Assembly (NCBI RefSeq): GCF_014859475.1
Contig: NZ_JACUUE010000003.1
Span: forward strand, 1-42,555
DNA from: Rhodoferax sp.
GTDB lineage: Bacteria > Pseudomonadota > Gammaproteobacteria > Burkholderiales > Burkholderiaceae_C
Length of the DNA stretch: 42,555 bases
Direction of reading: 5' to 3'
Positions 13,901 to 16,870 of this stretch are shown piece by piece (positions within the stretch are counted from its first letter, which is position 1; each line of letters begins with the position of its first letter). The notes beneath the pieces are model-generated. The model searched no databases. It saw only the letters and a program-made list of their open reading frames with translations, and was not told the origin of the DNA. Made by a program: the position numbers and the translations under genes.

Positions 13901-16870
13901 ATGGCCACCTATCCCCACTTGCTGCAACCCCTTGATCTTGGCTTTACCACGCTGCCCAACCGCGTCCTGATGGGCTCGATGCACGTCGGACTCGAGGAGG
14001 TCAAGGACGGTTTCAAGCGCATGGCCGCGTTTTACGCCGAGCGTGCGCGTGGCGGTGTCGGCTTGATCGTCACCGGGGGCATTGCGCCCAATGACCGCGG
14101 TCGCCCAATGCCTGGCGGCGCGCGCCTGACCACCGAAGCGGAGGCCGAAAAACACAAACTGGTGACCGCCGCCGTGCACCAGGCCGGCGGCAAGATCGCC
14201 ATGCAAATCCTGCACTTTGGCCGCTACGCGTACCACGAGAATCTGGTGGCACCGAGCGCGTTGAAGGCGCCCATCAACCCGATGACGCCGCATGCGCTGA
14301 GCACCGACGAGGTGCACCAGACCATCGACGACTTTGTGCGCTGCGCCGCGCTGGCGCAAAGCGCGGGTTACGACGGGGTCGAGATCATGGGCTCAGAGGG
14401 CTACCTGCTCAACGAATTCATTGCCGCGCGCACCAATCAGCGCGACGACGAATGGGGTGGCAGCTACGCCAACCGCATCAAATTTCCGGTCGAGATCGTG
14501 CGCCGCACGCGCGAAAAAGTGGGCAAAAATTTCATCATCATTTACCGCCTGTCGATGCTCGATCTGGTCGAGGGCGGCTCCACGCTCGACGAAGTGATTC
14601 AGCTCGCCCAAGCCGTCGAGGCGGCGGGTGCGACCATCATCAACACCGGCATTGGCTGGCACGAGGCGCGCATTCCCACCATCGCCACCAAGGTGCCGCG
14701 CGCGGCCTGGGCCTGGGTCACGCAGCAGCTCAAGGGCAAGGTGGGCATTGCGCTGGTGGCCACCAACCGCATCAACACGCCCGAGGTGGCCGAGCAGCTG
14801 CTGGCTGACGGCTTTTGCGACATGGTCTCGATGGCGCGGCCGTTCCTGGCTGACCCGCTGTTTGTGCAAAAGGCCGCCGAGGGCCGCGCCGACGAGATCA
14901 ACACCTGCATCGGCTGCAACCAGGCTTGCCTGGACCATACCTTTGCCGGCAAGGTGACCAGTTGCCTGGTGAATCCGCGTGCCTGCCACGAGACCCTGAT
15001 CAACCTCACGCCCGTTGCCAGCCGCGACAAGATTGCCGTGGTCGGCGCCGGGCCGGCGGGCTTGAGCTTTGCCACGGCCGCGGCGCAATGCGGCTTCGAC
15101 GTGACGCTGTTCGACGCGGCCCCCGAGATCGGCGGCCAGTTCAACATTGCCAAGCAGGTGCCGGGCAAAGAAGAGTTTTACGAGACGCTGCGCTACTTTG
15201 GCAAGCAGCTTGAGCTGACCGGCGTCACCCTGAAGCTCAACACAAAGATCGGCGTCATGGCAAGCGAAGCGTGGCAATCCATGGCAACCATCAGCATCAA
15301 GGACCTGGTCGCAAGCGGTTTCAAACACGTGGTGCTGGCCACCGGCGTGACGCCGCGCACCCCGCCCATCGATGGCATCGACCATGCCAAGGTGCTCGGT
15401 TACCTTGACGTGCTGCGCGATAAAAAGCCGGTCGGTAAAACCGTGGCGCTGATCGGCGCCGGCGGCATTGGCTTCGACACCGCCGAATACCTGCTGCATG
15501 AGGGCACCAGCTCGAGCCTGGATCAGGCCAAGTTCTTTGCCGAGTGGGGTGTCGATACCCGCTACAGCACGCGCGGCGGCCTGACGCCGGCGCACATCGA
15601 GGCGAGTCCACGCAAGGTCTATTTGTTGCAGCGCAAGACCAGCAAAGTGGGTGATGGCCTGGGCAAAACCACTGGCTGGATTCACCGCACCTCGCTGAAA
15701 AACCGCCACGTCGAGATGCTCGCGGGTGTGACTTACCGCAAAATTGACGACGCGGGCCTGCACATCACGGTCAACGGCGAAGAGCGCACGCTGCCGGTGG
15801 ACAACGTGGTGATCTGTGCCGGCCAGGAGCCGCAGCGCGAACTGCAGGCCGCTTTGCAGGCAGCGGGGCTGCAGGTGCACCTGATCGGCGGTGCCGACAA
15901 AGCCGATGAGCTCGATGCCAAACGTGCCATCAAGCAGGGCCTGGAGCTGGCGGTGGCGCTGGCCAGCGGGCCGGCACCAGGGGCTGACAAGTCAAACCAA
16001 GCAGTGACCGCTGGCCAGGCAAAAACCAGTGCAGGCAGCGCCGGAGAAAACAGCGCTACGCCCTATAAAACCCTGAGCGTGAGTTTGCAGGACCACATTG
16101 CCACCATCAAACTCAACCGGCCCGACAAGGCCAACGCCATGAACCTGGCGATGTGGCACGAGATTCGCCAGGCCTTCAAGTGGGTCGATGCCACGGCAGA
16201 GGCGCGCGTGGCGATTCTGGAAGGCGAGGGCAAGCTGTTCACCAGCGGCATCGATCTGCAGATGATGATGGGCATGGGCGACCAGATTCAGAATGACTGC
16301 GAAGCCCGCACCCGCGAAAACCTGCGCCAGGTGATTCTGGATTTGCAGGACAGCCTGACCGCACTGGAGCGCTGCCGCAAGCCGGTGCTGGCCGCCATTC
16401 ACGGTGCCTGCATTGGTGGCGGTATCGATTTGATTTGTTGCGCCGACATGCGCTACTGCTCGGGCGATGCCACATTCAGAATCAAGGAAATCGACATCGG
16501 CATGACCGCTGATGTGGGCACCTTGCAGCGCTTGCCCAAGCTGGTGGGCGAAGGCATGGCGCGCGAGCTGGCCTACACCGGGCGCAAGTTCGATGCGGCC
16601 GAGGCGCTACAGATGAAGCTGGTGAACCGCGTGTTCGACTCGCGCGAAGCGCTGCAAGCGGGTGTGCGCGAGCTCGCTGCCAGCATGGCCGCCAAGTCGC
16701 CCTTGAGCATTCGGGGGGTGAAAGAAATGATCACCTATGCGCGTGACCATTCTGTGGCCGACGGCCTGAACTACGTGGCCACCTGGAACGCCGCCATGCT
16801 GCTTTCCAACGACTTGCAGGAAGCCATGATAGCCAATATGGGCAAGCGAGCGCCAGTTTTCAAGGATTGA
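13901..16870 (+). CDS. Fusion protein: FadH-type 2,4-dienoyl-CoA reductase (OYE + 4Fe-4S + FAD/NAD(P)) with C-terminal ECH1-like dienoyl-CoA isomerase (crotonase) domain
   Basis: [33 protein letters not shown]...[29 protein letters not shown]...[46 protein letters not shown]; linker, then [15 protein letters not shown]...FTSGIDL...[17 protein letters not shown]...[19 protein letters not shown]. Confidence 0.93.
15253..15283 (+). repeat. Half-arm of the dispersed palindromic repeat, in frame inside the FadH domain
   Basis: CGTCATGGCAAGCGAAGCGTGGCAATCCATG matches CGTCAT(T/C)GCGAGCGAAGCGTGGC(A/G)ATCCATG at all but 2-3 positions; encodes [10 protein letters not shown]. Confidence 0.8.

Follow-up and report, generated by a model that had tools for sequence, protein, structure and literature searches.

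In this work we have investigated a stretch of 42,555 nucleotides of Rhodoferax sp. DNA (the window), in which a single gene joins a FadH-type 2,4-dienoyl-CoA reductase to an ECH1-type crotonase domain. From its sequence, we consider it very probable that this gene encodes a bifunctional auxiliary enzyme of beta-oxidation. Both domains are complete, their catalytic and cofactor residues are conserved, the single frame is maintained and the fusion is recurrent. By every sequence feature tested each part is assignable to a known family, and it is the fused architecture which appears to be new; no description of a FadH-ECH1 fusion was found in the open-access full texts searched. In animals the isomerase and the reductase act in succession in the breakdown of unsaturated fat. 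Odd-position double bonds give rise to 2,5-dienoyl-CoA, part of which is isomerised to 3,5-dienoyl-CoA; ECH1 converts 3,5-dienoyl-CoA to 2,4-dienoyl-CoA, and the reductase then removes one double bond. In the fusion protein, the C-terminal domain would convert 3,5-dienoyl-CoA (from odd-position double bonds, e.g. of oleate) to trans-2,trans-4-dienoyl-CoA, and the N-terminal FadH part would reduce this with NADPH, via FAD, 4Fe-4S and FMN, to trans-2-enoyl-CoA, which would pass back into beta-oxidation. E. coli is without the isomerase, and about 10% of oleate is hydrolysed there as 3,5-cis-tetradecadienoyl-CoA (PMC9329746). An isomerase and a reductase on a single chain would close this gap, and a testable question follows: do some bacteria use an isomerase/reductase route for oleate-type double bonds, as against the thioesterase discard of 3,5-dienoyl-CoA in E. 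coli?

The gene occupies positions 13901-16870 of the forward strand as a single intact frame, whose translation gave 989 residues and one terminal stop (16868-16870). An earlier note on this DNA had described one uninterrupted 990-codon frame made up of a FadH-like part, a low-complexity linker and a crotonase domain. The frame was found as described, and the division is supported by profile HMMs, by the sequences of solved structures and by phylogeny; a domain scan, as that note had proposed, found Pfam matches for both enzyme parts and an NCBIfam match for the crotonase. The mechanical ORF starts at TTG 13781 (1029 aa), and homology begins only at ATG 13901. The next gene, at 16871-17194 on the reverse strand and ZapA-like on inspection, runs towards the fusion gene, and its stop codon abuts the end of the latter, which therefore has no downstream partner.

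The FadH part comprises residues 1-686 (13901-15958, forward strand; assigned by Pfam, PDB alignment and residue comparison) and is full length, with an OYE/FMN TIM barrel followed by a 4Fe-4S motif and then the FAD/NADPH domains. Pfam recognises Oxidored_FMN at 7-332 (1e-87) and Pyr_redox_2 at 377-659 (2e-28), and the best solved match of residues 3-685 is E. coli 2,4-dienoyl-CoA reductase (1ps9), which aligns end to end (E 2e-288) with residues 1-669 of its 671. The 4Fe-4S, FMN and FAD/NADPH regions and the catalytic Tyr and His are common to both proteins. The cysteines C336-C339-C343-C355 are present in the window protein, as are Y168 and H254, which correspond to Y166 and H252 in the E. 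coli enzyme. The E. coli enzyme stands alone, whereas the FadH of the window is followed by a crotonase domain and contains an in-frame insert of 14 residues specific to its lineage. A natural fusion with an OYE-type oxidoreductase is likewise found in the family which NCBIfam names bifunctional salicylyl-CoA 5-hydroxylase/oxidoreductase (NF006101/PRK08255), but its partner domain differs and the window protein scores far under its cut-off (163 vs 1078 bits).

The crotonase domain covers residues 720-989 (16058-16867, forward strand; Pfam, NCBIfam and PDB matches). Pfam places ECH_1 at 730-989 (2e-48), and the match of 720-989 to NCBIfam NF004794/PRK06142 scores 410 bits, the cut-off being 308. 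Among solved structures matching residue 722 onward, mammalian ECH1 is closest (7e-75 to 2e-73), followed by M. tuberculosis EchA21 (1e-61) and by ordinary hydratases at 6e-35 and weaker. Mammalian ECH1 (1dci, 2vre, 8sk6) aligns over the full domain and has the identical triad spacing; it is a separate organellar protein, whereas in the window its counterpart is joined to the C-terminus of a bacterial reductase. By PDB alignment and residue comparison, the isomerase triad on the forward strand consists of D843 (16427-16429), E863 (16487-16489) and D871 (16511-16513), at the positions of D176, E196 and D204 in rat ECH1. The D-20-E-8-D spacing, which the earlier note had taken as pointing to an ECH1-like domain, is exactly that found, as in ECH1, and the domain groups with ECH1 rather than with ordinary hydratases by NCBIfam, PDB matches and residues. 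The D/E/D triad is present in all ECH1 rows of our comparison set (45 rows). Among the crotonases recovered from the window's genome it is exclusive to the fusion domain: seven others differ, two of them (L002 and the multifunctional L006) having E/E/G and the rest unrelated residues. The plain hydratases encoded in this genome have a glycine in place of D871, and their signature, a Glu/Glu pair with Gly as the third residue, is absent from the window domain, which has D/E/D instead.

Could the crotonase domain nevertheless be mainly an enoyl-CoA hydratase, or act on other dienoyl-CoA esters (e.g. of cyclic or conjugated acids), so that the protein handles another substrate? The crotonase superfamily is catalytically diverse, the name of NF004794 is the generic 'crotonase/enoyl-CoA hydratase family protein', and further little-characterised D/E/D crotonases exist (L015, L095); all of this counts against assignment as an isomerase. 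We nevertheless regard a hydratase or other substrate as rather unlikely, given the ECH1-type triad, the ECH1 enzymes as closest solved relatives and the repeated association with FadH, which acts on the product of ECH1. A whole-chain AlphaFold2 prediction that used 13 fused homologues (pLDDT 59.7, pTM 0.47) was too poor to judge pocket or domain packing. One of the little-characterised D/E/D crotonases, that of Arthrobacter terrae (L095:5938-9018), is encoded directly upstream of a FadH gene, in the reverse order and in another phylum. Its match, covering 1-976, had made this locus a candidate fusion, which was ruled out as there are two separate genes.

Is the fusion genuine, and is it kept? 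The window's assembly has 354 contigs, which might favour an artefact of assembly or sequencing. However, full-length single-frame matches with 74-92% identity to the window occur in 29 of the 90 genomes of the genus (its own included), with no stop or frameshift across any of them, and the single-contig assemblies which carry the full-length fusion include G122, G227 and G121. Misassembly is therefore ruled out, and an artefact of any such kind is to us practically inconceivable. The earlier note had named a frameshift or stop between the domains as evidence that would speak against it and had suggested a search for the same architecture; no such interruption is seen in the 29 genus matches, and the fusion recurs in related genera. 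Full-length fusions were found in six of 301 sampled family genomes, counting the window's own and the more divergent G027, and at strict thresholds no further one appeared in the order and class samples. FadH is present in plasmid records, but no locus there covers 80% of the query. Across an alignment of 20 fusions from the window's genus clade, mean pairwise identity is 87% for FadH, 89% for ECH1 and 31% for the linker, without any stop, and Y168, H254, the four cysteines and the isomerase triad are invariant in all 20. A linker at 31% between domains at 87% and 89%, in an uninterrupted frame, argues that the joined frame and both domains are under selection. Such a pattern is that of a free linker holding two conserved domains and not of chance read-through. 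In G1090 (contig C3:10533-13294) 17 bases separate the match to FadH from that to ECH1 and the two differ in frame; this could be a fusion gene with a frameshift or an error of sequencing.

The surroundings of these genes in relatives suggest how the fusion may have formed. A common arrangement in Burkholderiales is fadH, a gene for an NTF2/KSI-fold protein and ech1, with FadH and NTF2 often fused; this cluster, the recurrence of the fusion and the lack of NTF2 in the fused genomes tested do not appear in the earlier note. The small middle gene encodes a SnoaL_2/NTF2-like domain, a confident model of which (pLDDT 91) is closest to 3mso (63% identity), from P. aeruginosa, which bears the label steroid delta-isomerase; a second solved relative, 3f8x (39%), is likewise labelled putative steroid isomerase. 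We saw the locus as three separate genes, as fused FadH-NTF2 with an adjoining ech1, as adjacent FadH and ech1 without NTF2, and as fused FadH-ECH1 without NTF2. In Comamonadaceae and Oxalobacteraceae, FadH and ECH1 are orthologous to those of the window and in the same gene order, but there FadH is fused to the NTF2/KSI-fold (SnoaL_2) domain and ECH1 is separate, whereas the window's genome is without such an NTF2 gene. No copy of this gene was detectable in the six fused genomes searched, the window's included; it is present in both unfused comparators (G028 and G286), and G215, which has no strong FadH match, is also without it. Open frames of 1140-1180 residues had suggested three-domain FadH-NTF2-ECH1 chains; reading of the loci revealed a stop between NTF2 and ECH1, and for this reason we claim no such chain. 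SnoaL_2 proteins beside or fused with FadH were also seen across Burkholderiales, Acinetobacter and Brevundimonas (L016, L021, L032, L061, L091 and others). A search of open-access papers gave nothing relevant to a link between FadH and NTF2. The FadH-associated NTF2/KSI-fold protein may take part, so far unnoticed, in the oxidation of unsaturated fatty acids.

The linker of the window protein, rich in Ala, Gly, Ser and Thr, spans residues 687-719 (about 30 residues; 15959-16057, forward strand, by alignments), in agreement with the earlier placement at ~15965-16070. Linkers vary in length and sequence between species. Those of the named records L040 and L041 are common to the congeners L171 and L174, which makes Rhodoferax the probable genus of the 90 genomes. 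At many unfused loci the space between the FadH-NTF2 gene and ech1 contains a palindromic repeat, ATAGCTGCTAGCGC-N10-AAGCGCTAGAGGCCAAAAA. When searched for as a pattern, this repeat occurs 26 to 67 times in each of G227, G121, G122, G296 and G285 (reversed control 0), and two of these occurrences are the very linkers of the fusions in G227 and G121. Using a repeat profile built solely from copies other than the linker under test, we obtained matches in forward orientation for the linkers of L013, L014 and L045 (E about 1e-7) and in reverse orientation for those of L175, L049, L178, L172, L179, L177, L011 and L047 (E 7e-7 to 3e-3); every matching linker outscored all 200 dinucleotide shuffles of itself. 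In several fused lineages, therefore, the linker can be recognised as a copy of a palindromic repeat dispersed through intergenic DNA. The window's own linker did not match the profile and the pattern search found 0 copies in its genome; we therefore claim a repeat origin for the other lineages, and for the window's linker it is only a possibility.

The repeat-derived linkers have opposite orientations in the two main fused clades, which agrees with separate fusion origins. In the trees of both FadH and ECH1, the window's clade stands apart from a Comamonas-like fused clade (L013, L014, L045, L046), which is nested among loci with FadH-NTF2 and ech1. Forcing the two fused clades together was rejected by the AU test (p-AU 4.7e-4 for ECH1 and 1.5e-5 for FadH), although these values are somewhat optimistic, since the groups were named after the first tree had been viewed. 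On these trees and tests the FadH-ECH1 fusion arose independently at least twice. L012, L044 and L048, with long branches or weak placement, may be further origins. A separate, more divergent fusion of 1075 residues in G027 (L015:1483-4710) has FadH and a D/E/D crotonase, the latter 38% identical, and a 118-residue C-terminal tail.

What does the cell gain from such a chain? The protein might form a hexamer through its crotonase part, with the FadH units tethered outside, and the gain would lie in a fixed stoichiometry or in the nearness of the two domains, through channelling or local concentration. A recurrent and widely kept fusion points to a functional partnership, and when it joins consecutive pathway steps it is strong evidence of functional linkage. 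The long flexible linker, however, argues against rigid channelling. We give an even chance to the domains being merely tethered, the fusion having followed a deletion and fixed the joint expression of two adjacent genes, with both activities present but not catalytically coupled. Mere tethering would suit the close clustering of these genes in unfused relatives and the lack of conservation in the linkers, which in several species resemble a translated former intergenic repeat; independent recurrence and persistence through the genus exceed neutral expectation and speak against it, but do not separate channelling from stoichiometry. Our fuller explanation is tentative and falls somewhat short of probable: in at least two lineages, loss of the NTF2/KSI-fold gene put ECH1 in frame with FadH, with the palindromic repeat as linker in some, and the product would be a substrate-coupling isomerase-reductase providing a complete reductase-dependent route for odd-position double bonds, which E. 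coli is missing. Counting against the bifunctional enzyme proposed at the outset, PMC12691678 states that nothing shows E. coli FadH to be active on double bonds at odd positions. Substrate channelling could readily be tested on such a single chain, and the fused loci are an unusually readable record of gene fusion and linker formation.

Small in-frame insertions were also seen within the FadH part itself. The 14-residue insert of the window (~15258-15299) is missing from the other fused homologues aligned, and a diverged form of it occurs in the congener L162. Within its DNA lies GCGAAGCGTGGCAATC, a REP-like repeat which occurs 117 times in the genome when up to two mismatches are allowed (reversed control 0). 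Another fused homologue (L045:6001-8979) has a different insert of 25 residues in its FadH part (the ADVAPSPGSARPPEGVQPSLGRPSGR region), perhaps another in-frame repeat element.
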